DNA of 17,214 nucleotides, taken from the NCBI GenBank assembly GCA_002401945.1, contig NVUP01000014.1, positions 1-17,214 on the forward strand, read 5' to 3'. The position numbers and the translations under genes were made by a program. Within the stretch, counting starts at the first letter, position 1. Each line of letters opens with the position of its first letter. A model generated the notes under the pieces. That model made no database searches. It saw nothing but the letters and a program-made list of their open reading frames with translations, and was not told the DNA's origin. Shown here piece by piece: positions 1 through 17,214 of this stretch. This DNA is from Paracoccaceae bacterium (GTDB lineage: Bacteria > Pseudomonadota > Alphaproteobacteria > Rhodobacterales > Rhodobacteraceae).

Positions 1-423
1 TGAAATGATCAGCGGTCGACACCCCGCCGCCTCCAGCCGCGCCCGCCAAAATCCAAACAGGCGGCAATTGCGGGGATCTTTGAAGAAGAAGAAGCTCGAC
101 TCGTCGTATTCCCCAGCCAGAATCTCATCGGCGCGGCGGCGGAACCCTACCGCTGTAGGTGAATGTTCCCATTCCGGATTGAACGGCAACCAGTCGTCCC
201 AGGCCGATCCCGCCGAAGCCAGTATCTCATTGTTCAGTTTATTGAGAGGGGCCGATTCAAAATATCCCTTGGGGTTGGCACCTTCCCCACCAATGGCGCG
301 GCGCGGCATATCACAGCCCAGCAGGTTCAGCAGCCCACCCAGGGCCGACGTTCCCGACCGATGCATCCCCAGAATCACAAGGCATGTTCTGGCGGGGGTT
401 TTCTTCGATTTGGGAGAGGGCAT
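1..423 (-). CDS. Sulfotransferase family protein, 3' end cut by window edge
   Basis: The first 141 residues of an open frame that starts at the ATG at 423-421 and runs off the left edge. Residues 14-37 form a beta-strand followed by the phosphate-binding loop GMHRSGTSALGG, the 5'-PSB site that holds PAPS in sulfotransferases. NPKGYFES (50-57) and KDPR (115-118) are typical of the capsule-associated group of this family. The inferred role is transfer of sulfate from PAPS to a sugar of the polysaccharide in the cytoplasm. It lies 54 bp downstream of the giant glycosyltransferase on the same strand, so it is probably the last visible gene of that operon. The ribosome site is weak, but an in-frame stop upstream leaves this ATG as the first possible ATG. 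The acceptor is unknown and the C-terminal half is outside the window. Confidence 0.85.
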   Translation of the reverse strand, partial: MPSPKSKKTPARTCLVILGMHRSGTSALGGLLNLLGCDMPRRAIGGEGANPKGYFESAPLNKLNNEILASAGSAWDDWLPFNPEWEHSPTAVGFRRRADEILAGEYDESSFFFFKDPRNCRLFGFWRARLEAAGCRPLIIS

Positions 424-477
424 GATGTGTCCGAACGTCCGGGTGACTAAAGTATCTGAAATTTTGATTTACAGTTC

Positions 478-6137
<5,660 letters not shown>

Positions 6138-6145
6138 TCACTTTT

Positions 6146-6174
6146 CTTAGACTGGAATTGCGGTGTCCCTGCAA
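6146..6174 (-). promoter_or_regulatory. Weak candidate promoter for glf
   Basis: On the minus strand TTGCAG (6174-6169), a 17-bp spacer and TCTAAG (6151-6146) make a degenerate -35/-10 pair 30 bp upstream of the glf ATG. The match to the sigma-70 consensus is only partial. It is offered mainly because the 90-bp gap between the sulfotransferase stop and glf is larger than elsewhere in this operon. Confidence 0.25.
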
Positions 6175-6206
6175 GGCACCCCAGGCAGCCCCCGCCCCAA
6201 AAGCTG

Positions 6207-7121
6207 TCAGCTGTCTCTGCGATAGCCCAGAGTTTCGGCATAGGGAAAGGTCACCTCTTCCGCCATCGCATGCAAGTGAGCATTTTTTGAGTGCTTCCAG
6301 CCCTCGGCCGGAGTGATGACAATGTCGGTACGACGCTCTTTCAGCACCGTGGCATTGGCTGGTGGGAACAGATGCGTGTCCAGCCAGGAGATATCAGCCG
6401 TGTTGCGGCTGGTGAACAGCGACAGATCTGGCGTCAATCCGGCCCAGTCCTGGATTGCCTCAATCCAATGCCGAGGCCGCTCGGTCAGATCCTCATAACG
6501 CAGCCGCATGAACCGGTGCGGGTTCAGATCACGGATCACCTGCAACCGCCGTTGCCGCCCGGCCCAGTTGCGGGTCCGGCCGCGCAACACAGCCGGGCGC
6601 TTCAGCACCTTGGCCCAGCTGACAGCCACTGCGCGCGGGTCACGCACCAGATTCAACACATGCAAATCGATTTCCGGGATCAGACTAAGCGCCAGGCACA
6701 GGTCCACTGATTTGGAACTGTCAACCAGCAGCCGCCCCCCCGCCTGCGCGGCCGCCGCAATATAGAGATCGCGGAAAGCCTCAAGAAAAACGGCGTGATC
6801 CTGGGTCAATGCCTTGCGGACTGCAAGCTCGCCCCAGCGGGGATCCGCGTTGGCCGCCTTGCGGAACAGCTGCATCCCCTCGGTCAGCGCCTGCAAGGCT
6901 CCGGCGCCATGCAGCTTTTCGACCTGTGCCACCACGGCACCCCAATAAGAACAGCTTGGCACCGGTTGATCACAGCTGCAAATTTCCTGCTCCAGCAGGG
7001 CCAGCGGCAGGTCACGAATCTGGCCAATATTATAGACCTGCGCATGTTGTGACAGCATCAACGACAGGAAGGTTGTCCCCGACCGACCAGCCCCAGCAAT
7101 ATAAAGAACCTTAGTAAGCAA
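6207..7121 (-). CDS. PAPS-dependent sulfotransferase, 304 aa
   Basis: A cytoplasmic sulfotransferase. The 5'-PSB loop GAGRSGTTFLSL (10-21) binds the 5'-phosphosulfate end of PAPS, and VRDPRAVAVSW (159-169) is the 3'-phosphate motif. A Cys cluster CSCDQPVPSCSYW (48-60) and LLVDSSKSV (131-139) are common in this subfamily. I chose the TTG at 7121 because GGAGG (7127-7131) sits five bases before it. The frame is open four codons further, to a TTG at 7133 (308 aa), but that start would overlap the ribosome site. The gene is first on the minus strand of a divergent pair with the adenylation fusion at 7236, and it is followed by glf after 85 bp. The probable acceptor is the capsular glycan; the specificity is unknown. 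Confidence 0.9.
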   Translation of the reverse strand: MLTKVLYIAGAGRSGTTFLSLMLSQHAQVYNIGQIRDLPLALLEQEICSCDQPVPSCSYWGAVVAQVEKLHGAGALQALTEGMQLFRKAANADPRWGELAVRKALTQDHAVFLEAFRDLYIAAAAQAGGRLLVDSSKSVDLCLALSLIPEIDLHVLNLVRDPRAVAVSWAKVLKRPAVLRGRTRNWAGRQRRLQVIRDLNPHRFMRLRYEDLTERPRHWIEAIQDWAGLTPDLSLFTSRNTADISWLDTHLFPPANATVLKERRTDIVITPAEGWKHSKNAHLHAMAEEVTFPYAETLGYRRDS

Positions 7122-7126
7122 TCGTC

Positions 7127-7131
7127 CCTCC
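7127..7131 (-). promoter_or_regulatory. Ribosome-binding site deciding the sulfotransferase start
   Basis: GGAGG on the minus strand, five bases upstream of TTG at 7121-7119. This favours that TTG over the in-frame TTG at 7133, which lies inside the site. Confidence 0.6.
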
Positions 7132-7146
7132 AATATCGTAATTCAT

Positions 7147-7175
7147 TTGCGAGTACGAGGATCGCAAAACTCGCA
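7147..7175. promoter_or_regulatory. Inverted repeats in the divergent control region (possible operator)
   Basis: The 114-bp gap 7122-7235 between divergent genes holds TTGCGA (7147-7152) and TCGCAA (7162-7167), a perfect 6-bp inverted repeat with a 9-bp spacer. An overlapping second pair is TGCGAG (7148-7153) and CTCGCA (7170-7175). Such geometry fits a dimeric repressor or activator site, or alternative RNA hairpins. No convincing -35/-10 pair was found in either direction, so the promoter positions remain open. The regulator is unknown. Confidence 0.4.
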
Positions 7176-7223
7176 CCAGCTTGCAACCGGATCATTTACG
7201 GCTTGTTTCATGCCTTGTTTTTT

Positions 7224-7229
7224 GGGAGA
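7224..7229 (+). promoter_or_regulatory. Ribosome-binding site of the adenylation-carrier-SGNH gene
   Basis: GGGAGA, six bases upstream of ATG at 7236. It decides the start: the frame is open further upstream to a TTG at 7203, but that codon has no comparable site. Confidence 0.6.
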
Positions 7230-7235
7230 AACACA

Positions 7236-10034
7236 ATGTTTTTTACGGCTGGCCAGGTACTTGACATGAAAGACCTTTTCCCATCTCCGATCGCGTCAAA
7301 GCGCTGGCGCGCCAGCGATGACTTCCTTCGGTCTGTCGCAAGATGGCCGGATCGCCCAGCCATCACCGTTGCCGGTCGCAGCTATTCCTACAGCGACCTC
7401 AACACCCATGTCCAAGCGCTCGCCGCAGCCATCGCTGATTGCGAAAACAGCAGCGATGCTCCCGTGGCCGCAATCTATGCCAACCGGAGCCTGGAGACCT
7501 ATGTCGCGGTCCTCGCCGCCGGGATGCGGGGCTATGCCTATGTGCCGCTAAATTCAAAATTCCCCGCCGAGCGCAATCGCTATATCCTCGACCGCTCCGG
7601 GGCCTCGGTGCTGATCTTTGATCAAAACAGCGGCGCAGCCGTTGCGGATATTCTGACCAGTGACAGCGATGCTCCCACAGCCCCGCTCCCCCATCAGATC
7701 CTGAGCAGCAACGTGCCGACATCGACCCGCCGGGATCTCCCGCGTCTGCATGACAACCCTTATGCCTATGTGTTGTTCACCTCGGGCAGCACCGGCCAGC
7801 CCAAGGGTGTCGCCATTCGACACAGCAATCTGGAGGCTTATCTGCAGGCGACCTTTGCGGTCACCGATTATAATCACCAAGACCGAATGTCGCAAAATTT
7901 TGACCTCACCTTCGATCTCAGTGCCCACGACATGTTTGTCTGCTGGCGCGCCGGAGGCCATCTGATCGTGCCTTCCGCCGCCGATCTGGAACGCCCCGCC
8001 GACTATCTGCACAGCCATAACATCACCTGCTGGTTCTCGGTGCCCAGCCTGGCGCAGAAAATGCGCCTGCAGGGCGCGGTGCAGCCTGGATCCCTGAGCA
8101 ATCTGCGTCTGACGCTGTTCTGCGGCGAGGCCCTGCCGGTCGATCTGGCACAGGACTGGGCCCGCGCCACCGGTCAAAGGGTGGAAAACTGGTATGGCCC
8201 AACCGAGGCCACCATTGCCTGCACCCGCTACCAGCTGCCTGCGGATCCGGAACAGATCCAAGGTCGGTTCAACCTGGTGCCCATTGGCATCCCGCTGCCC
8301 GGTGTGCAGACTCTGGTGCTGAAAGAGGATGGCAGCCCTGCTGCTGCCGGAGACAGCGGTGAATTGCTGGTCACCGGACCGCAGGTGGCGGATGGCTATG
8401 TCGGCGACGCCGATAAGACCGCCAAAGCCTTTGTGCTGCCAACCGGGCGAAGCGCAATTCACTACCGCACCGGCGATCGGGTCGAAACGGAAGAGGATGG
8501 CAACCTGCAGTTCATCGACCGTATCGACAATCAGATCAAGATCCGCGGCTACCGGGTTGAGCTGGGTGAGATCGAAGCAGTGCTGCGCAGCCACGCCGCA
8601 GGCTGCAATGCGGTGGTGGTTGCGCTGCCATTGAAATCCGCCATACCCACCAGCCTGGTCGGCGTGGTCGAAGGCTGGGAGGGCCCCGGCCGCCAGCTCA
8701 AACAGGCCATCGAAGGTCACCTGCCGGACTACATGACCCCCTCGCGGGTTCTGGTAATGAAACACTTCCCAAAAAACGCCAGCGGCAAGGTTGATCGCGG
8801 TGCCATTGGCCAGCGGGTTGTCAGCCGGCTGGAAAAAATGCACGCAGCGGCCACCCCAAAGAAAAAATTCAAACGTCAGGATCGGCTGGTTCAATTCATA
8901 CAGCAGATCAACCCGGCCATCGCCCGCCAGGATATCGAGCGGGCAGAAAACCTGATGGATGCTGGCCTCGATTCGATGGGGTTTGTCGACTTCACCATTC
9001 GGCTGGAGAACCATTTTGACCTGTCCCTGACCCAGGAAACTGTGTCAGAGCTGTCGCAGATGTCCCTGACCCAGATGGTGGGGTTTCTGCGACGGGCGCT
9101 AGAGCCCAAAGGCGCCGACCGGTTCCAGCCGCCCACCACCGGCACATTGTCCTCTCCCAAACTGAAACGTCACCTGCATTACCGGGCCATGCGGGCGCTG
9201 GATATGCTCGATAAATTCCCTGACTTTGCCAAGACCACCACCGATCCAATGGTGCTGTGCATCGGCTCTTCCGGGTTTATGCGCGGGATCTGCCCGGCCA
9301 CCATCGAAGCCACCGCCCAGCAGGCGGGTCACCGGGTCCGGGCCGGCAATCTCGGCATGGCCATGCTCAGTGTCGACGGCATCACCGAAGTCTGCGAGTT
9401 CCTCCGCAGCACGATGCAGGATCTGGACCGCCGCATTGATCATGCGGTGATCGAGATGGAGATCATGCAATTGAGCATTCTCCCCCCCGCCGGCGACATC
9501 GAGATCATGGAGGCCTTCAAGGCCGGCGCCTTCCGGGATGTCCCGCGTAAATATTATGATGCCGATACCATCTGGGAGGCTGACAGCGGCGGTGCCATCG
9601 CGGCCTCGGAAACGCCGGAGGCCGTGGTTAGCCAGGCCAATTGGGAACGCAATCGGAACCGCGAAATCCGCGATGCCTTTGACGGTCAGATCAAGATGGA
9701 CAGTCGCGCCGTCGCCAGTTGGATCCGCGGCGTCAAGGCGCTGCAGCAGGTGAGCAACCATGTGACTGCAGTGATCCACCCGATCCAGAGCAGCGGAGCA
9801 AAAGCCGCCCCAGCCCAACACGGCCCCAACCATGTCCGCGATCTGATTGCACAAGTCACCCGCGAAACCGGGGTCGAGATACGGTTGGATACCGACTTTG
9901 ACATGGCCGATGAAGATTTCAAGAATATCAGCCACATGAATGATCATCGTGGCCGCCAGACCTTTTCGGCGCAAATCACCCGCCACCTTTTCAAGTTCAA
10001 GCCTGACACGGCAGGACACACCGGAGAACATTGA
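7236..10034 (+). CDS. Dlt-like fusion: adenylation (DltA-like) - carrier protein - SGNH domain, 932 aa
   Basis: Predicted to activate an amino acid with ATP, load it on its own phosphopantetheine arm and pass it to an acceptor, probably the polysaccharide. Adenylation domain, about 27-535: LFTSGSTGQPKG (180-191), FDLSAHDMF (226-234), LFCGEALP (294-301), WYGPTE (319-324), YRTGD (410-414), QIKIRGYRVELGEIE (433-447) and catalytic Lys518 in NASGKVDR. FCGE and the overall pattern match DltA; the Cys (296) corresponds to the residue tied to D-Ala preference in Bacillus DltA. Carrier domain, about 547-622: Ser580 in GLDSMGF is the arm site. C-terminal SGNH-like domain, about 670-925: GSS (677-679) as in DltD and HMNDHRG (900-906), with Asn897 where Asp is usual. 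No signal peptide or membrane span, so cytoplasmic. It overlaps the next sulfotransferase by one base. D-Ala is inferred; another small amino acid is possible. Confidence 0.88.
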   Translation: MFFTAGQVLDMKDLFPSPIASKRWRASDDFLRSVARWPDRPAITVAGRSYSYSDLNTHVQALAAAIADCENSSDAPVAAIYANRSLETYVAVLAAGMRGYAYVPLNSKFPAERNRYILDRSGASVLIFDQNSGAAVADILTSDSDAPTAPLPHQILSSNVPTSTRRDLPRLHDNPYAYVLFTSGSTGQPKGVAIRHSNLEAYLQATFAVTDYNHQDRMSQNFDLTFDLSAHDMFVCWRAGGHLIVPSAADLERPADYLHSHNITCWFSVPSLAQKMRLQGAVQPGSLSNLRLTLFCGEALPVDLAQDWARATGQRVENWYGPTEATIACTRYQLPADPEQIQGRFNLVPIGIPLPGVQTLVLKEDGSPAAAGDSGELLVTGPQVADGYVGDADKTAKAFVLPTGRSAIHYRTGDRVETEEDGNLQFIDRIDNQIKIRGYRVELGEIEAVLRSHAAGCNAVVVALPLKSAIPTSLVGVVEGWEGPGRQLKQAIEGHLPDYMTPSRVLVMKHFPKNASGKVDRGAIGQRVVSRLEKMHAAATPKKKFKRQDRLVQFIQQINPAIARQDIERAENLMDAGLDSMGFVDFTIRLENHFDLSLTQETVSELSQMSLTQMVGFLRRALEPKGADRFQPPTTGTLSSPKLKRHLHYRAMRALDMLDKFPDFAKTTTDPMVLCIGSSGFMRGICPATIEATAQQAGHRVRAGNLGMAMLSVDGITEVCEFLRSTMQDLDRRIDHAVIEMEIMQLSILPPAGDIEIMEAFKAGAFRDVPRKYYDADTIWEADSGGAIAASETPEAVVSQANWERNRNREIRDAFDGQIKMDSRAVASWIRGVKALQQVSNHVTAVIHPIQSSGAKAAPAQHGPNHVRDLIAQVTRETGVEIRLDTDFDMADEDFKNISHMNDHRGRQTFSAQITRHLFKFKPDTAGHTGEH

Positions 10035-11005
10035 TGACTCACCCCCCCAGCTTTCTGATCTGTTCAGAGCGTTCTGGCTCAAACCTGATCAGCACAATCA
10101 TGGGCACCCATTCCCAAATCTATGCGCCACCACCGCTTCACTTTGGCCAAGTTGTCTTTAAAAATCTGCATGAAACCCTCCCCCGTGGCACCCGTTCGCG
10201 GGCATGGGAAAAGCTCCAGGCCCAGGCCACAAGACGGGTCCGAAAACTGGCCGGTCCGGAGGAGGCCCAAATCCTGCAGGATTGGTTGGCCACCCGCAAC
10301 ACAGTTGATCCCGAGGAACTGATCCGGTTCCTCTATCTTCAGGTCCCTTCCGAGGCCACAAACAAGCGAGTCTTTATAAAAGAGAACAACCTTCACCAGT
10401 TGCTGTTCTTCATTCTTAACTGTTTTCCGGATGCCAAATTTGTCTTCCAGGTCCGCGACCCGCGGGACTTTCTAGCTTCGGCCAGGGCCGCCACGGCAGC
10501 TCCACACGGCAATAAATTCGGCTCCGATCGTGGCGCCCTCAGGGTTTGGGAGCAAGATCAGAGAACCGGCCTGCAGGCCCTTGCCCTGTTGGGGGCAGAC
10601 CGCGTTTTTCTGCACCGATATGAGGATCTCCTGATCGATTCCGAAGCCGTGGTGCGGCGGATCTGCAGCTTTCTCGGCGTGGATTTCGAACCTGAAATGC
10701 TGGAGTTTCACAAGACTGAAAAAGCCAGCCAACTGGCAGACAGCCACAAGCAGCGTCAAAACATCAACAAGCCACTTATGGAAAATAATTTTGCCAAATA
10801 CCGAAAGGCCCTGACCCAGGCTGATATCCGAATGGTGGAACGGCCCCTGGGCCGCCTGATGCACACCTTCGGCTATCCCCTGGATCTGATCCTCCTGGGC
10901 AAGGGGGCCAAGAAGAGCCGGCGCAAAACCTCTGCCGAACAGTCCAGCTTCCAACGCAGGCCCCTGTTGCCACCGCTGGACTATGGCCCCTCGCCTTTCT
11001 TCTGA
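10034..11005 (+). CDS. Sulfotransferase family protein, 323 aa
   Basis: A cytoplasmic PAPS-type sulfotransferase. The 5'-PSB loop is CSERSGSNLIS (10-20), a variant of the usual PRSGTT pattern. RDPRDFLASA (141-150) is the 3'-phosphate motif, and HRYEDLL (194-200) followed by a helix ending in FLGV is typical of Stf0/Sulfotransfer families. The start is ATG at 10034, which shares its A with the TGA stop of the adenylation fusion; GGAG at 10023-10026 lies seven bases upstream. A TTG directly before it is also in frame but less likely. Co-translation with the fusion suggests the two act on the same product, for example sulfation of the glycan or group that the fusion aminoacylates. The last 35 residues are basic and Pro-rich and outside the family core. 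The acceptor is unknown. Confidence 0.88.
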   Translation: MTHPPSFLICSERSGSNLISTIMGTHSQIYAPPPLHFGQVVFKNLHETLPRGTRSRAWEKLQAQATRRVRKLAGPEEAQILQDWLATRNTVDPEELIRFLYLQVPSEATNKRVFIKENNLHQLLFFILNCFPDAKFVFQVRDPRDFLASARAATAAPHGNKFGSDRGALRVWEQDQRTGLQALALLGADRVFLHRYEDLLIDSEAVVRRICSFLGVDFEPEMLEFHKTEKASQLADSHKQRQNINKPLMENNFAKYRKALTQADIRMVERPLGRLMHTFGYPLDLILLGKGAKKSRRKTSAEQSSFQRRPLLPPLDYGPSPFF

Positions 11006-11020
11006 CAGCTCTGCTGCCAA

Positions 11021-11075
11021 AATCAGGGATCAAACCACATCCACATACTCTAAAGAGGGGTTTGGGGCCCTGATT
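11021..11075. terminator. Inverted repeat between convergent genes (possible bidirectional terminator)
   Basis: AATCAGGG (11021-11028) and CCCTGATT (11068-11075) are perfect reverse complements, with a nested AAACC (11032-11036)/GGTTT (11059-11063) pair inside. The element fills the 68-bp gap between two convergent genes and includes bases of the minus-strand stop codon. The loop is long and no T-run follows on either side, so it is a weak or factor-assisted terminator at best. Confidence 0.35.
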
Positions 11076-12177
11076 ACTCCTGAGCGCTCAGATCATCCAG
11101 ACGTTTGTCAGCCGCTTCATCGCCACGTTTTCTTAAAAGGCGCCGGATCTGCTGCAGCGCCGGAGCATAAACCGTCTCCTCAGAAACCGGCAGCACCTGC
11201 CGCGCCTGGTCAAGATCATCAAAAAACGCGGCGCGCCCGACCACCCCGCCCAGATAGGCATTGATCGGCGCAAACTGCTCCACCAGATGCTGCCGATTTT
11301 GCACACCAAACAGCTCAATCTGAGTGCTGTCTGGCAACCTGAGCTTCGGTGTCAGGTCTCGTATTTCAGCGCGCAGAGCGCTGGCCTGGTCACGAGGCAA
11401 CTCGGTAATACCCCGGCGAACAATCTCATAGACACCGCGATGCAGAGAGTCGTTTTCCCGCCGCTCCCGGGCCAGGCCTTTTGGGACTTTCAGCCCGTTC
11501 TGGGTGATGAAATCCGCCACCGACCCGCCTGCATTACGCACTTCGGTGTAATTTCTCAAAATCACCCGGGCTTCTGGCAAGGCCTGCAACCAGCCTTCGA
11601 CCATCAGCCGATAATCAAAGTGAATGCCGCTGATATAGGGCTCCACCCCATTGGTGCGCAGCGGCGCAATCGTATGGCCAAACTTCAACCTCTGGCCGTG
11701 CCAAGACGCCAGATATTCATCAATCCGCCGCAGGGTGGCGGTCACCGTGAATTCGGCCTCAGGGAAAAACCCAACCAACTGGTGGATCAACTCCGGGGCA
11801 ACGGCATTGAAATTGGCAAACACCTCGGCGGCCAGAATCATCGTATGGGGGGTGAAAAAGCTGACCTGCTGACGGATCGCATGTATCATCTGCGGCTGCC
11901 CCGGCAGCCGCTTGTGATAGTTGGGCACTTTGCCACCCTGGTGGTCAGCCAGCATCCGAAAGGCCAGCGCATTATGTGGTTCACGGGCATTGATCGGCAA
12001 AGGCCCATCCGGCTGATGCCGACCCGCTGCCATCGCAGACATCAGCGCCAGGCCTTCAAAATCAGTGGCTGGGTACAAAATCCCGGCCTGCGCCAGCGCC
12101 ACCGCGTTGCGCGCCAGATAATCTTGCAACGAGGTCGACCCAACCTTGTGATGGCCAATAAACAGAATGATCTTCAT
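11074..12177 (-). CDS. Sulfotransferase-like protein, 367 aa
   Basis: The N-terminus IGHHKVGSTSLQDYL (7-21) is a sulfotransferase-type phosphate-binding loop (K-x-G-S-T-S) directly after the first beta-strand. TLRRIDEYLASWHGQ (148-162) fits the 3'-phosphate-binding Arg/Ser strand-helix seen in this family. The rest, including a basic C-terminal helix (QIRRLLRKRG), carries no motif I recognise. It is therefore a probable PAPS-dependent sulfotransferase of a divergent type. The start ATG at 12177 has a modest site, AAGAG, five bases upstream. It lies 58 bp after the GlfT2-like gene and is the last gene of the kpsE-kpsT-galactofuranosyltransferase operon, so the galactofuran chain is the likely acceptor. 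That acceptor assignment is inference. Confidence 0.78.
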   Translation of the reverse strand: MKIILFIGHHKVGSTSLQDYLARNAVALAQAGILYPATDFEGLALMSAMAAGRHQPDGPLPINAREPHNALAFRMLADHQGGKVPNYHKRLPGQPQMIHAIRQQVSFFTPHTMILAAEVFANFNAVAPELIHQLVGFFPEAEFTVTATLRRIDEYLASWHGQRLKFGHTIAPLRTNGVEPYISGIHFDYRLMVEGWLQALPEARVILRNYTEVRNAGGSVADFITQNGLKVPKGLARERRENDSLHRGVYEIVRRGITELPRDQASALRAEIRDLTPKLRLPDSTQIELFGVQNRQHLVEQFAPINAYLGGVVGRAAFFDDLDQARQVLPVSEETVYAPALQQIRRLLRKRGDEAADKRLDDLSAQE

Positions 12178-12235
12178 AAATGCTCTTAAACCTGTTTTAG
12201 TCGGCTTGATCTTACCCTATGCGGGGGGGCGTCGC

Positions 12236-14068
12236 TCACTCAGCAACCTTTTGCGCCGCGCGGGATGGCTCTGCCATCTCCAACTTGTCCCGCCAATAGG
12301 TCTCGCTGGTCAGTCGGCCATAGTCACCCCGATACTGCATCGCCAATGTCTCATAACATTTAAAAAACCGCAGGCCATTGCGCAGGAACCGGCCACAGAG
12401 CTGCACCGCCCGCCACTTGTCATGACAGACGGTATAGGCCTTGGTTTCCTCGGCATTCAACACCGTGATCTGTGCCGCCCCCCACACATATCCGATATGG
12501 CCACGGTGTTTTGCCCGCAGGGTGATCTTGCGGCCCAGACGGCCATAAAATGGGATCAGCAATCCGTTTAGTGTCAGCTTCATCAGCAGCCGCCCGCCCC
12601 AACTCAGCGGAGTTTTGCGGATCGGTGGCAACCCATGGGTGGAGTCTATATTCTGCCAGGTCTCGCTCTTGGTCAGCGCCTTCAAATCAGCGCGCCGCTG
12701 CGCCATATCAGCGTTTTGATCAAAAAATTCAGGGCCTTGCATCACATCTTCCAAAGCCAAGTTGACCGCCGCCATAGTGTCGTAATGCATCCGTGGCAGG
12801 TTGCGCAGCATAAACCAGGCCGCTATTTTTAGCACCCGCAGCCGCCCCATATCCAACGCTGGCAGGCTCAAGTGATGCGCCATATGACTGCGCAGGTCCA
12901 AATACCAAGTCTGCGGGCTTTCCTTTTCAGTAAAGCTCTCCTGGAACGATACAACGCCGTTTAGGGTGACAATGTTAAAATCGTTGGCCAGCGAGAAACT
13001 GACATCATCCCCCCGGACAAAAAACGGAAAGGCCAGATGCTCGGCCCGTTCCAGCGGAAAGGCAAAATACCACCAGCCACCATAGAAATTCCACGGCACC
13101 GGGCGGCAGGCTGAGGCTTCCATGTCGATCACTTCGTCAACATCCCTCAGGTCGGTGCCCATATGCAACGGCTGGCATCCGCCATGAAACAACGCGCCGT
13201 TTTCCCAGATTGCCCAGCGGTGCTGCTCACCAATCATCGCACCAGCCACCGCCGTGCCCGGATCCGTTGCATAGGCCAAAAACTGATAGGTGCGTTCCAG
13301 GCTGTCCATATGGATCGAGGCATCATCATCCATGAACAGGCAATGGCTGGCGCCGCGCCCGCGCGCCTCCAGCAACCCGCGGGTAAAACCGCCAGCCCCG
13401 CCCAGGTTGGCATTTGGAATGATGCTGACATGGTCATTGGCTGTCGTTTCAACCGACTGGCCATTGTCGACCACAACCATATGCAGATGGTCCTGCATCC
13501 AGGACTGGGCGGCAAAGGCGCTGAACCGCGCCATGGTCCGCGCCACTTCGGCCTCCCGCCTGAAGGTGGTCACTGCCAGCACCAAATCGGGGCTGCGCCG
13601 CGGCGCCTGCCTGGTCTGCCAGCTGGCATTGAGCAACGCTCCCTGTCCCAGCGCCCGTAGTTCGAAAAACAACTGCCCCGGATCATACGGCGGCTGCAGC
13701 ACATGGCTCAGCTCCAACCGCAGCTGACCGTTTTCCGGAAAGGTAACAATGTCACTAACCACCCGGTCCCAGGATTTTCCCCGCGATGCCAGAAACACCG
13801 ACAGCTCAAACTCGCCAGCGCCCTCCAGCAACAGAGACAGATCTTCCAGCCCGCATTCCCGAACCCATTTCTCCCCGTTGAACAGATTGAACCAGGTGCT
13901 AAAGGCGACCAGACCACCGCTGGCAAAGCGCACCCGCCTGCCTCGATCCGATACCGCAACCGGGCCTTTGCTGCGCAGATACAGATCCCGTTCTGTGCAA
14001 ATGCCGGACTCGGGCCACATCAGAGATTGCAGGCTATAGAAGCTTGGTAGGTCAGAATGATCAGTCAA
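12236..14068 (-). CDS. GlfT2-like galactofuranosyltransferase (GT2), 610 aa
   Basis: Expected to polymerise or add galactofuranose from UDP-Galf, the product of glf in this window. It has an N-terminal beta-sandwich region (about 1-150) and a GT-A domain (about 155-400) with AVTTFRRE (165-172), NANLGGAGGFTRG (219-231), the metal/UDP-binding MDDDAS (246-251), GGWWYFAFPL (330-339) and RGDDVSFSL (352-360), then a helical C-terminus. DDD, WW and GDD in this order, and a length near 640 aa, are hallmarks of mycobacterial GlfT2. I chose TTG at 14068 because GGAGG (14076-14080) lies seven bases upstream; the frame is open to an ATG at 14116, which has no suitable ribosome site. The gene follows kpsT on the minus strand. 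The linkage type and processivity cannot be told from sequence. Confidence 0.9.
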   Translation of the reverse strand: MTDHSDLPSFYSLQSLMWPESGICTERDLYLRSKGPVAVSDRGRRVRFASGGLVAFSTWFNLFNGEKWVRECGLEDLSLLLEGAGEFELSVFLASRGKSWDRVVSDIVTFPENGQLRLELSHVLQPPYDPGQLFFELRALGQGALLNASWQTRQAPRRSPDLVLAVTTFRREAEVARTMARFSAFAAQSWMQDHLHMVVVDNGQSVETTANDHVSIIPNANLGGAGGFTRGLLEARGRGASHCLFMDDDASIHMDSLERTYQFLAYATDPGTAVAGAMIGEQHRWAIWENGALFHGGCQPLHMGTDLRDVDEVIDMEASACRPVPWNFYGGWWYFAFPLERAEHLAFPFFVRGDDVSFSLANDFNIVTLNGVVSFQESFTEKESPQTWYLDLRSHMAHHLSLPALDMGRLRVLKIAAWFMLRNLPRMHYDTMAAVNLALEDVMQGPEFFDQNADMAQRRADLKALTKSETWQNIDSTHGLPPIRKTPLSWGGRLLMKLTLNGLLIPFYGRLGRKITLRAKHRGHIGYVWGAAQITVLNAEETKAYTVCHDKWRAVQLCGRFLRNGLRFFKCYETLAMQYRGDYGRLTSETYWRDKLEMAEPSRAAQKVAE

Positions 14069-14075
14069 TGGGTGG

Positions 14076-14080
14076 CCTCC
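14076..14080 (-). promoter_or_regulatory. Ribosome-binding site deciding the GlfT2-like start
   Basis: GGAGG on the minus strand, seven bases upstream of TTG at 14068-14066. The upstream ATG at 14116 has its only AGGA more than a dozen bases away. Confidence 0.6.
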
Positions 14081-14117
14081 AAGTCCGCCTCTCTTTAGTC
14101 TTCCGTCGCCGCACATT

Positions 14118-14771
14118 TCAACTCATCATTTCCTGATGCAGGGCAATGGCTTCTTCAAGGTCCTCAAAATACTGCATTCTGCCATGCTCCAGCACGATGC
14201 CGGCATTACAGAATTTGCGCACCTGCCCCATTGAGTGATTGACCATGATGGCACTGGACTGCTGCATCCGATCGGCAAACAGGATCCGGCTTTTGCGCTT
14301 GAACTGGGCATCTCCCACTGCGGTCACCTCATCAACCAAGTAGGTGTCAAACCGGATCCCCATTGAGGCGCCAAAGGTCAACCGCGAGCGCATGCCCGAT
14401 GAATAGCTGCGCATGGGCATATGGTAAAATTTACCCAGCTCGGCAAACCCATCGACAAAGGCCACCAGCTCATCGGTATCGACACCATAGATCCGGGCGA
14501 TAAATCGCACATTTTCGGCGCCACTCAGGTCCTTGTGAAACGACGCCCCCAGCCCCACCGGCCAAGAGATGCTGCCATCGCTAACCACCCGCCCATGATC
14601 CGGGCGCATGGTGCCCGCGATGATTTTAAGCAGGGTTGATTTCCCAGCGCCGTTGCGCCCCAACAGCGCCAGAGATTTCCCGGTGGGCAAGGTCAGGTTC
14701 AGATTATCGATGACGATCTTGCGCTCGCCCTCCAGCCAGAAGCTTTTGGTCAGGTTCTCAAAACGGATCAT
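14118..14771 (-). CDS. kpsT: Capsular polysaccharide ABC exporter, ATP-binding subunit
   Basis: The ATPase of the KpsMT exporter that moves the finished polysaccharide across the inner membrane. In 217 aa it shows Walker A GRNGAGKST (38-46), the signature YSSGMRSRL (123-131), Walker B TYLVDEVTAVGD (143-154) and the H-loop His179 in VNHS. Length and the SYSSGM signature match KpsT/Wzt N-terminal domains; there is no C-terminal glycan-binding domain of the Wzt type. I chose ATG at 14771, giving MIRFENLTKSF, the usual KpsT beginning. The frame is open to a TTG at 14825, but that lies inside kpsE and adds an unrelated tail. The start is five bases after the kpsE stop, so the genes are coupled. 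The partner permease kpsM is encoded divergently at 16250-17071. Confidence 0.96.
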   Translation of the reverse strand: MIRFENLTKSFWLEGERKIVIDNLNLTLPTGKSLALLGRNGAGKSTLLKIIAGTMRPDHGRVVSDGSISWPVGLGASFHKDLSGAENVRFIARIYGVDTDELVAFVDGFAELGKFYHMPMRSYSSGMRSRLTFGASMGIRFDTYLVDEVTAVGDAQFKRKSRILFADRMQQSSAIMVNHSMGQVRKFCNAGIVLEHGRMQYFEDLEEAIALHQEMMS

Positions 14772-14776
14772 AGGGC

Positions 14777-16168
14777 TCAACTGCGGTCCCGGATTGAATA
14801 ATAAATCAGCGACAGGATAGACCAACCCAGCAACAGGAACAGCCCGGCCAGCCCGGCCAGAATAAACCGCTGCGGGTACTGCGAATCTTCCGCCTGGGTT
14901 GGCTTGATATAGGTGGCCAGATAGCGGCTTTGGCGCACCGCATCGTCGCGTGCCACTTCCAGCGCAGTCAAGGCCGCACGATAAGACGTCTCGGCATATT
15001 CCAGATCCACAGTCAGCCGCTCAAATTCGGAAATCAGCGACGGGTAATCCTCGCCCACAGCCCCGGTCTCGGTACTGGCTGAAGTAAAGGTCTGACGTTC
15101 TATATCGATACGGTCGCGGATCACGTCAATGCGCTGGCGGGCCGTTTTCAGCCGTGGATCCCCCTCGCTGACGCTGCCGCGCAGCAGGTCAAAGTCGATC
15201 AGTGCTTCAGCCAGTTGCTGCTGCAGATTGTTCATCACCCCCATGCGGCCCTGAATGTCGGCGTTTGGATCGACAATACGGGTGCGGGTGCGGAATTGGG
15301 TCAGCGCCTCGCGGGCGGCCTTCAGCCGTTCGATCGCCTCGTCCAGATCGGCCTGAGCATATCCCATCGCATCCTCGCGGGCACGGGCGTTCAGAACATT
15401 GATGCGAGTCTGGCTCTCGGCGACAATCTCGCGCGTGATGGCCTGCGCCATCACCGCATCAAACGCCACCGCCTGCACTTCAATCAGCCCAGAAGAGCCA
15501 TCATAAGAAATGCTAACCACTCGCTGCCAGTACCAGACCAGATCTTCAAGACTGGCATCCGGCCACAGCGAAAAAGCCCAGTCATCCGGCCAGCGTTGCG
15601 CATAATGCGCCTTCAGGCCCAATCGCGCATCAACCACTTTGGCCATTTCCTGGCTTTGGATGAACTCATAGAGAATATCGCTGTCCGAAGCTGCGTTGCC
15701 ACCGGCAAATTGTGCCAACCCGCCCAGCAGATCATTGGCGCTGCTGCTTTCTTGGCTGCGCACAGTAAACCCGGTGGTGGAGATATACTGATCCCCAGCC
15801 ACGGTCCACAGATACAAAACCACCGCCACCAGCGGCGCCAGCACCAGCAGAAGGAAACTGGCCAGCAGCCCCACATGCCGCTTTTTCATCCGCGCCGGAC
15901 GGGCGACCGGTGGCAATTGCAGGGCCGCCAGCTCTGGGGCAGCCAAGGCTTTGGCCGCCGCTCGTCTTTTTTTGCGCCGCTGTTTATTACCTTTGCCACG
16001 GCCCTTGCCTCTCCCGCCCCCTGGCACCAACAGTTGCACATTGCTTTGTGGGTCGGGTTCAATGACCTCGTTGCCGACAACTTCGGTTTGCACAGCGGGT
16101 GCAGCCGGATCATCCGGCAAGGACCGTTTCGGGTCGGGAGAAGAATTACCCTGCTTCATATCGGTCAA
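14777..16168 (-). CDS. kpsE: KpsE/PCP-type capsule export protein
   Basis: A polysaccharide co-polymerase-type inner-membrane protein that links the KpsMT exporter to the outer-membrane channel. In 463 aa it has a cytoplasmic N-terminal tail, a first membrane span at about 98-122, a periplasmic domain with coiled-coil segments (about 265-300, 310-360 and 380-415) and a second span at about 435-458 close to the C-terminus, which is the KpsE/Wzz topology. The DQYISTTGFTVRS strand after span 1 is typical. The tail holds a very basic stretch (53-69, 11 Lys/Arg in 17 residues, with Gly alternating in its first part). The start is a TTG at 16168 with a weak AGG upstream; an ATG at 16159 (460 aa) is an equal alternative. 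It is the first gene of its operon, divergent from kpsM. No KpsD-type outer-membrane gene is visible in the window. Confidence 0.92.
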   Translation of the reverse strand: MTDMKQGNSSPDPKRSLPDDPAAPAVQTEVVGNEVIEPDPQSNVQLLVPGGGRGKGRGKGNKQRRKKRRAAAKALAAPELAALQLPPVARPARMKKRHVGLLASFLLLVLAPLVAVVLYLWTVAGDQYISTTGFTVRSQESSSANDLLGGLAQFAGGNAASDSDILYEFIQSQEMAKVVDARLGLKAHYAQRWPDDWAFSLWPDASLEDLVWYWQRVVSISYDGSSGLIEVQAVAFDAVMAQAITREIVAESQTRINVLNARAREDAMGYAQADLDEAIERLKAAREALTQFRTRTRIVDPNADIQGRMGVMNNLQQQLAEALIDFDLLRGSVSEGDPRLKTARQRIDVIRDRIDIERQTFTSASTETGAVGEDYPSLISEFERLTVDLEYAETSYRAALTALEVARDDAVRQSRYLATYIKPTQAEDSQYPQRFILAGLAGLFLLLGWSILSLIYYSIRDRS

Positions 16169-16185
16169 TCTCGGCCTACATCCGT

Positions 16186-16240
16186 TTGTAATTGGCTTTA
16201 GTTGCTGCCATAGTATGGCTTGCTAACGTCTGCATCACAA
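16186..16240. promoter_or_regulatory. Divergent kpsM/kpsE promoters sharing a 13-bp palindrome
   Basis: The 81-bp gap contains GCCATAGTATGGC (16207-16219), two perfect 6-bp arms around one base. On the plus strand TTGTAA (16186-16191), a 17-bp spacer and CATAGT (16209-16214) form a plausible promoter for kpsM. On the minus strand TTGTGA (16240-16235), a 17-bp spacer and CATACT (16217-16212) form one for kpsE. Each hexamer matches four of six consensus bases. Both -10 boxes fall within the palindrome, so a protein bound there could switch both operons. The palindrome is seen directly; the promoters and operator role are inferred. Confidence 0.45.
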
Positions 16241-16249
16241 TGGGCTTTC

Positions 16250-17071
16250 ATGGTCAGCATTCCTCCCGCGGCAGCGCCTGCCCAACGTCCAAAACCCGTC
16301 GGCAAACGTCGTTTTGCCACCCTGCGCACCATCTTCGCTCTGGTGCTGCGCGAGATGTCCACACGTTACGGGCGCACCCCCGGAGGCTACCTCTGGGGTG
16401 TCCTGGAACCCCTGGCCACCGTCATATTTCTCAGCCTTGGGTTTTCACTGGTTCTGCGCTCCCCCTCTCTGGGCACCAGCTTTTTGCTGTTCTACGCGAC
16501 CGGCTATTTGCCGTTCAATTTCTACCAGGTGCTGTCCGGCTCCATCGCCTCAGCTCTGAGCTTTTCCAAACCACTGCTGAAATACCCCGCCGTGACCTGG
16601 CTGGATGCGGTGATGGCACGGTTTTTGCTCAACAGCCTGACCAACATTCTAATCGCGGCCCTGCTGTTTACCGGCATCCTGGCGGCCATCGGCAACCGCT
16701 CGGCTCTGGATCTGCCAGCAATTGTTCTGGCCATTGGCCTGGCGATGATTTTTGGCTTGGCAGTGGGGGTCCTCAACTGCGTGCTGATGGGGCTTTATCC
16801 AGTATGGAAAATGACCTGGGGCATCGTCACCCGGCCGCTATTTCTAGCCTCGGGGGTGCTTTTTCTCTACGATGACCTACCACCGATGGCACAGCAGGTA
16901 CTGTGGTATAATCCACTGATCCATATCACCGGGTTGACGCGCACCGGATTCTTTTCCACCTACAACCCCGCCTACATCAGCGTCATCTATGTTCTGGTTG
17001 TCAGCCTAATAGTGCTCACCCTGGGGCTGGTGCTGATGGGCCGCTATCACCGGGTCATTCTGAACCGCTAA
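16250..17071 (+). CDS. kpsM: Capsular polysaccharide ABC exporter, permease subunit
   Basis: The membrane subunit that pairs with KpsT to carry the polysaccharide across the inner membrane. Six hydrophobic spans are visible in 273 aa, at about 48-69, 76-98, 127-147, 154-178, 189-207 and 243-264. LREMSTRYGRTPGGYLW (33-49), just before the first span, is the hallmark of ABC-2 polysaccharide permeases (KpsM/Wzm), and FLYDDLPPMAQQVLWYNPL (205-223) is the usual loop before the last span. I chose ATG at 16250; the frame is open to a TTG at 16220, but that codon overlaps the predicted transcription start. The ribosome site (GGG) is weak. It is separated from kpsT by the divergent promoter region rather than lying next to it, as it does in many clusters. 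Confidence 0.95.
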   Translation: MVSIPPAAAPAQRPKPVGKRRFATLRTIFALVLREMSTRYGRTPGGYLWGVLEPLATVIFLSLGFSLVLRSPSLGTSFLLFYATGYLPFNFYQVLSGSIASALSFSKPLLKYPAVTWLDAVMARFLLNSLTNILIAALLFTGILAAIGNRSALDLPAIVLAIGLAMIFGLAVGVLNCVLMGLYPVWKMTWGIVTRPLFLASGVLFLYDDLPPMAQQVLWYNPLIHITGLTRTGFFSTYNPAYISVIYVLVVSLIVLTLGLVLMGRYHRVILNR

Positions 17072-17214
17072 CAGGACCTTCATCCGCCAGTGCCAAGACA
17101 TTGCCGTGCGACCGGCCCAGACGTCGGCCCAATCCGTCACCGATGGCCCGCCAGGTCAGCCGCAGATACGCGCGCCGCACGCCGCGGTGATGGCGCACCT
17201 TGAGGATCCATTTG
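17055..17214 (-). CDS. Unidentified protein, C-terminal 52 residues (cut by window edge)
   Basis: An open minus-strand frame enters from the right edge and stops at TGA 17057-17055, overlapping the end of kpsM by 17 bp in convergent orientation. The 52 residues are Arg-rich (KVRHHRGVRRAYLRLTWRAI near the start) and end in an acidic tail, DEGPVSGSE. The codons favour G/C at the third position, and the other two minus-strand frames are closed by stops, which supports a real gene. No family can be named from this fragment. Its position suggests another polysaccharide-locus gene, but that is only context. Confidence 0.5.
   Translation of the reverse strand, partial: KWILKVRHHRGVRRAYLRLTWRAIGDGLGRRLGRSHGNVLALADEGPVSGSE

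Follow-up and report, generated by a model that had tools for sequence, protein, structure and literature searches.

A single-chain adenylation-carrier-SGNH protein inherited together with a sulfotransferase in Paracoccaceae and other proteobacteria

In the Dlt pathway of teichoic acid D-alanylation, DltA, DltC, DltB, DltX and DltD act together, and the acyl group crosses the membrane via DltB/DltX to reach DltD on the outside. A gene in a 17,214-nucleotide stretch of DNA from a Paracoccaceae bacterium (contig NVUP01000014.1, positions 1 to 17,214; hereafter the window) encodes an adenylation (A) domain, a peptidyl carrier protein (PCP) domain and a DltD-like SGNH domain in one chain, A-PCP-SGNH. 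This arrangement raises the question of where such a protein works, with which partners and on which acceptor. What is conserved is a cassette made of an aminoacyl-transferase and a sulfotransferase, which in the window has joined a polysaccharide cluster, and the link to sulfotransferases that carry loops for 3'-phosphoadenosine-5'-phosphosulfate (PAPS) is the main new fact. The cassette consists of the following features.

7236..10034, + strand: A-PCP-SGNH protein, 932 residues plus stop (Pfam/NCBIfam matches, model, conservation)
7329..8789, + strand: A domain, residues 32-518 (PF00501/PF13193/TIGR01733; conservation)
8868..9110, + strand: PCP domain, about residues 545-625, with Ser580 (codon 8973-8975) in a DS motif (PF00550)
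9168..10010, + strand: DltD-like SGNH domain, residues 645-925 (model, fold searches, conservation), with S679 (codon 9270-9272), H900 (codon 9933-9935) and Asn at 897
6207..7133, - strand: ST1, PF13469 sulfotransferase, the constant partner, divergently transcribed (Pfam, PAPS loops, co-occurrence)
10034..11005, + strand: ST2, PF13469 sulfotransferase, with a start codon that overlaps the A-PCP-SGNH stop codon in TGATG (Pfam, PAPS loops)

The initial annotation had read the protein as a single-chain fusion of an A domain, a carrier with Ser580 as its serine and a DltD-like domain, and the profile matches, the SGNH model and conservation agree with that reading. The A domain reaches the model for amino-acid adenylation (TIGR01733, 348.8 bits vs a cut-off of 317.4) but not that for DltA (TIGR01734, 272.7 bits vs 559.85), and is classed here as a relative of DltA rather than as a DltA equivalog. 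Its D227, which we take to be the Asp for the alpha-amino group of the amino-acid substrate in non-ribosomal peptide synthetases (NRPS), is kept in all 52 aligned homologs, and Ser580, within the PF00550 match, is likewise invariant (52/52). A Pfam search at E 0.001 returned only PF00501, PF13193 and PF00550, with neither a condensation nor a classical thioesterase domain, which sets the protein apart from multimodular NRPS; the DltD family PF04914 gave no match in a Pfam scan at E 1. The full-length model drew A-domain and NRPS chains in a fold search, and a separate model was therefore made of the SGNH piece. Alone, it showed an SGNH-like fold with DltD as the top Foldseek match at a modest TM-score, the other structural matches being mostly esterases and thioesterases. 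The Block V position is Asp in 37 and Asn in 15 of the 52 homologs, the window protein carrying Asn897, and the Block III Asn of the SGNH superfamily was not identified in the domain by eye. From its sequence and conservation, A-PCP-SGNH can be regarded as a real, conserved enzyme. In the genome G512, a single contig of 3.5 Mb, a frameshift or an error in the A domain breaks the gene into two open frames (L042:9699-12393).

The association with sulfotransferases, which the initial annotation had noted in the window, was assessed in 23 loci with long enough flanks (the window, L017, L018, L020-L030, L042-L046, L062, L064 and the plasmids L072 and L073); left out were L019, which begins inside the gene, L037 and L063 at contig edges, and L015, a duplicate of L017. 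In 22 of these loci no more than 4 kb separate ST1 from the fusion; the exception is G512 (L042), where the distance is about 11 kb. A complete ST2 is present in 14 loci, while L021 has a remnant and eight loci have none. Of 20 genomes, 19 hold a PF13469 gene no further than 4 kb from the fusion, where 0.45 would be expected for an 11-kb stretch in genomes that hold 2-13 PF13469 matches each, the cassette's own included. The two genes are also inherited together. In the window's family the fusion is found in 7/394 genomes and ST1 at 250 bits or more in 7/388, and these are the identical seven genomes; six further genomes that lack the fusion reach 90-108 bits to the ST1 profile. In the family of the genome G1135, ST1 at 250 bits or more occurs in 7/107 genomes, all among the eight with the full fusion; the eighth fusion contig begins inside the gene, and two fusion-free genomes scored 76-88 bits to ST1. 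ST2 is present in 4/107 genomes of that family, all with the fusion and one as a remnant. The Fisher p values for co-occurrence are 4e-15 in the window's family and 3e-10 in that of G1135, with the window-family samples taken as the same genomes, relatedness ignored and the 250-bit line chosen after the gap had been seen. In G487 and G1222 the cassette pieces lie on separate contigs.

Both partners keep the motifs of PAPS-dependent enzymes: R[ST]G[ST] and RDPR, which we take to be the 5'-PSB and 3'-PB loops, are present in 22/22 ST1 rows and 14/14 full ST2 rows, the window included. In four loci (L043-L046) ST2 is fused N-terminally to the A domain, giving ST2-A-PCP-SGNH, and in two (L025 and L028) ST1 and ST2 are fused to each other; among the matches listed, PF13469 stands on the same chain in 3 of 120 homologs. 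Since aminoacyl protein and sulfotransferase are inherited together, the pair probably adds amino-acid as well as sulfate groups to a surface molecule that is exported. Ten aligned ST1 proteins also share three invariant cysteines (C52, C54 and C61), possibly a metal site.

The cellular location of the protein was approached through hydropathy and its SGNH relatives. By Kyte-Doolittle hydropathy alone (19-residue window), the N-terminal 60 residues reach a maximum of 0.57 and hold no hydrophobic anchor; the highest value anywhere, 1.84, lies within the A domain. Five stand-alone SGNH relatives (L065-L069) have N-terminal hydrophobic stretches of 1.66 to 2.43. By eye, an MBOAT-looking gene adjoins six of the seven loci of weak SGNH relatives (L065-L071), with none seen in L071; PF03062 was confirmed in all three such genes scanned (L065, L067 and L069), and one stand-alone relative scored 21.3 bits to PF04914 DltD (cut-off 22.7). 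The SGNH domain is thus related to SGNH proteins encoded beside MBOAT genes. No MBOAT match was found in the window's own genome, which is 85% complete, and MBOAT genes were found in three of 20 fusion-bearing genomes, on contigs other than the cassette's. The earlier description of a soluble protein with no DltB in view is borne out to this extent. In this protein a DltD-type domain seems to have come to lie inside the cell, joined to the end of the carrier that is its donor, and the protein would be cytosolic; the move may have run from outside to inside, the SGNH tree being only midpoint-rooted.

The genes surrounding the cassette in the window bear on the acceptor.

1..423, - strand: N-terminal part of a sulfotransferase-like protein that runs off the window (47% identical to part of a gene on CP104103 annotated as sulfotransferase family protein)
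478..4962, - strand: multidomain glycosyltransferase, 1494 residues (PF00535/PF13641/PF13524)
4959..6116, - strand: UDP-galactopyranose mutase, glf (TIGR00031, 313.4 bits over 303.75)
11074..12177, - strand: protein without a Pfam match in which a sulfotransferase-like loop, GHHKVGSTS, is seen by eye, with homologs in L072 and L042
12236..14116, - strand: GlfT2-like galactofuranosyltransferase (PF17994, 28.3 bits over 26.1)
14118..14825, - strand: KpsT/Wzt-like ABC ATPase (PF00005; below NCBIfam cut-offs)
14777..16168, - strand: KpsE-like export protein (TIGR01010, 216.9 bits, cut-off 437.5)
16220..17071, + strand: KpsM-like ABC-2 permease (PF01061; NF050053, 79.5 bits, cut-off 300)

By these scores the export proteins resemble KpsMTE exporters but fall under the NCBIfam cut-offs (KpsE 216.9 vs 437.5; KpsM 79.5 vs 300), and they are classed as related but diverged. 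Kps-type genes were found near the fusion in four of the 23 loci (the window, L026, L042 and L072), with a polysaccharide export gene and a sugar transferase in their place in L073. In a tree of SGNH domains (29 rows, rooted at the midpoint; the pieces used for L046 and L062 were too long and were trimmed) the window, L072, L042, L073, L018 and L026 form one clade with support 95/99. Polysaccharide genes surround five of its six members, namely the window, a Phaeobacter sp. G2 plasmid, G512, a Leisingera thetidis plasmid and Gemmobacter; around the sixth, a Paracoccaceae metagenome-assembled genome (MAG), none were recognised. Outside this clade no polysaccharide cluster was recognised within the fetched flanks, where ST1 is found with or without ST2. 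The survey of kpsMT and sulfotransferases proposed at the outset gave a divided answer, positive for sulfotransferases (ST1 in 22/23) but negative for kpsMT (4/23), and the assignment to a capsule locus holds within the window clade but not as a general rule. As a general acceptor, the capsule was rejected for this clade restriction of Kps genes and kept for the window clade.

For the other lineages, neighbours were tallied over 131 of 150 candidate open reading frames (ORFs) of at least 200 residues in 17 of 18 loci, leaving out L018 and 13 ORFs, mostly the longest. Among the 25 families listed of 157, Sulfotransfer_2 had three members and Glyco_transf_41 two; single glycan-type genes in the flanks were an Epimerase_2 in L017 and a group 1 glycosyltransferase in L024. 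In a Comamonadaceae MAG (L025), cysD (cut by the contig start), cysN-APS kinase, an ABC exporter, ST1-ST2 and A-PCP-SGNH follow one another on one strand. The ABC exporters of L025 and L028 carry PF00664 plus PF00005; the best score of the L025 exporter is to an MsbA-related model, whose cut-off it does not reach. This gene row and the L028 exporter tie the cassette to PAPS and export. Peptide synthesis was rejected, as no condensation domain is present in the protein or among the 25 neighbour families listed of 157.

Several further observations concern these flanks. The cassette of L025 has as neighbours a Glyco_transf_41 protein, an Stf0 sulfotransferase and a 1598-residue protein that looks repetitive by eye and has no Pfam match (L025:10620-19224); the last of these could possibly be a glycoprotein acceptor, and L028 holds a protein of like size. 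In a Caulobacteraceae MAG, LptC, LptD_N-type and ABC ATPase genes adjoin the cassette (L022:3960-6015), a hint at lipopolysaccharide as the acceptor in that locus. Peptidase_M19 genes near the cassette (five members among the 131 tallied neighbours, of which those at L029:3630-4826 and L064:4573-5664 were confirmed individually) are perhaps mere local synteny. Second A-like genes of about 510-550 residues, with weak matches, occur in L017 and L043.

The amino acid was considered from the A-domain pocket and its closest relatives. The pocket residues, placed by eye from motif numbering, are D227, L228, H231, F267, L294, C296, W319, I327, A328 and K518; with H, F and W as bulky side chains, the pocket points to a small substrate. 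By sequence, the closest solved single-domain A chains are IdnL7 (6akd), VinM (8k4r), AlmE (4oxi, with glycyl-AMP), CytC1 and DltA. IdnL7 and VinM are presumably small-amino-acid ligases, and the CytC1 structures were solved with aminobutyric acid and D-valine according to their titles. AlmE loads glycine and DltA D-Ala (PMC12930378). TycA variants lead by structure, so the sequence rank is no proof of substrate. A choice of glycine by the rank of LgrA was dropped, as its score sums two A domains that each reach 186-195 bits alone. The most likely amino acid would be Gly, Ala or Ser.

The cassette is rare and scattered. Strong SGNH-profile matches were found in 2/385 genomes of the class sample, 7/394 of the family sample, 2/398 of the phylum sample and 8/107 of the family of G1135, and a species-genome collection gave 14 loci; weak matches in G313, G391, G843, G872, G895 (judged without flanks), G1056, G1137 and on another G1222 contig were excluded from the fusion count. 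The sources include Rhodospirillales, Paracoccaceae, Caulobacteraceae, Comamonadaceae and Woeseiaceae, so that alpha-, beta- and gammaproteobacteria are spanned, and one homolog is named Verrucomicrobiales. A literature search, with thin coverage of subscription journals, found no publication that deals with an A-carrier-SGNH protein or with its tie to sulfotransferases.

The contig that carries the window (C38) is 110,410 bases long, and its end is a second copy, with 138 mismatches, of the first 17,328 bases, as a circular replicon of about 93 kb would show; the window thus lies on a circular plasmid-like replicon or was duplicated by assembly. C38 carries rml genes and encodes an RPA protein (PF10134, 329.5 bits), a ParA-type ATPase and a ParB/RepB-like protein that stays under the model cut-offs, and plasmids of Parasedimentitalea and Phaeobacter inhibens have the replication regions nearest to its own. 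From glf to the KpsM-like gene the order is the same on plasmid CP104103 of Phaeobacter sp. G2, with ST2 replaced by a gene annotated as hypothetical, and the proteins are 63-88% identical. The Gemmobacter lutimaris locus (L026:17007-20838) adjoins RepA/ParA/ParB-type genes like those of the window's replicon. We take these replicons to be roseobacter RepA-type biofilm plasmids with a rhamnose operon, to which C38 is alike in its RPA, rml genes and nearest replication regions but from which it differs in the SGNH domain: among 72,556 plasmid records only two match it at E 1e-5, though this set may lack close kin of the window's genome.

Considering these results, we favour, with somewhat more confidence than doubt, a cytosolic, MBOAT-free relative of the Dlt pathway that is coupled to sulfation of a conjugate before export. 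The A domain would activate a small amino acid as aminoacyl-AMP and load the phosphopantetheine of Ser580; the SGNH domain (Ser679/His900) would accept the aminoacyl group from the carrier as an acyl-enzyme and pass it, by transfer rather than hydrolysis, to a hydroxyl of the acceptor. With the DltD-type domain inside and next to its donor carrier, no membrane relay would be needed. The same acceptor would be sulfated from PAPS by ST1, and often ST2 too, and the finished conjugate would be exported after modification. In the window the acceptor is most likely a galactofuranose-containing polysaccharide of the KpsMTE-like exporter or its lipid-linked precursor; elsewhere it would be another exported (glyco)conjugate.

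The full model of the initial annotation, in which a capsule enzyme yields a zwitterionic sulfated capsule, is a special case of this mechanism. The window itself speaks for it, with glf, a GlfT2-like protein, KpsMTE-like proteins and several sulfotransferases, as do the nearly identical order on the Phaeobacter sp. G2 plasmid and the kps-type genes of G512 and Gemmobacter. Yet Kps genes occur in just four of the 23 loci, and the fusion and ST1 stand without kps in the examined Woeseiaceae, Comamonadaceae, Rhodospirillales and Rhodovulum loci, so the zwitterionic capsule is held as a tentative reading, on the doubtful side. A free small molecule or lipid as product seems unlikely. It would be loaded by A-PCP, sulfated by ST1/ST2, released or transferred by the SGNH domain and exported by the ABC exporter, and this would fit the single glycosyltransferase family (Glyco_transf_41, two members) among the 25 families listed for 131 ORFs in 17 loci, the PF00664 plus PF00005 exporters of L025 and L028 with the sub-cut-off MsbA-related score of the former, and the esterases and thioesterases that dominate the SGNH fold matches. 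However, the SGNH domain has relatives whose genes adjoin MBOAT genes, and this, the polysaccharide genes around five window-clade loci, and the Epimerase_2 and group 1 glycosyltransferase flanking L017 and L024 all speak against such a product, and MsbA-type exporters flip glycolipids as well. Least probable, and by a long way improbable, is an SGNH domain that merely edits or hydrolyses a mischarged carrier while another enzyme makes the transfer. The Asn in place of the Block V Asp in 15 of 52 homologs would suit such a role, as would the thioesterase activity reported for DltD, but no other constant neighbour that might be the transferase was recognised, with profile or sequence searches covering only ST1, ST2 and the window's own genes.

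Compared with known systems, the cassette shares with the Dlt pathway an A domain with an FCGE cysteine, which has a role in DltA, a carrier, and an SGNH domain whose top fold match is DltD; it differs in being one chain with no anchor seen by hydropathy and no MBOAT match in its genome, and in having sulfotransferase partners. From AlmEFG, which glycylates lipid A in Vibrio cholerae, it differs in that the Alm components are separate proteins; the AlmG transferase is of another family than the SGNH domain, and we know of no sulfotransferase associated with that system. AlmE (4oxi) is nevertheless among the closest single-domain A chains to that of the window, and both systems are Gram-negative and use an A domain and a carrier for aminoacylating a surface molecule (PMC12930378 for AlmEFG). 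The MBOAT-SGNH acyltransferases (PatA/PatB, AlgIJFX and WssHIFG) resemble it in that its SGNH domain has relatives with MBOAT genes as neighbours, but it lacks the MBOAT, and its donor is a fused carrier, whereas the donor of PatA is acetyl-CoA (PMC12148441).

More broadly, we see an even chance that these proteins form a scattered but widespread cytosolic class in which a DltD-type domain has moved inside, been fused behind its donor carrier and acquired an obligate PAPS sulfotransferase, and which, encoded on chromosomes and on biofilm-type plasmids, makes surface conjugates with sulfate and amino-acid esters together and serves different export routes. For genes that are annotated just as non-ribosomal peptide synthetase, the cassette reading is a testable prediction. 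If true, the soluble single-chain version would offer a simple system for studying aminoacyl transfer from carrier to acceptor, and one cassette could explain the decoration of surface molecules with both amino acid and sulfate.
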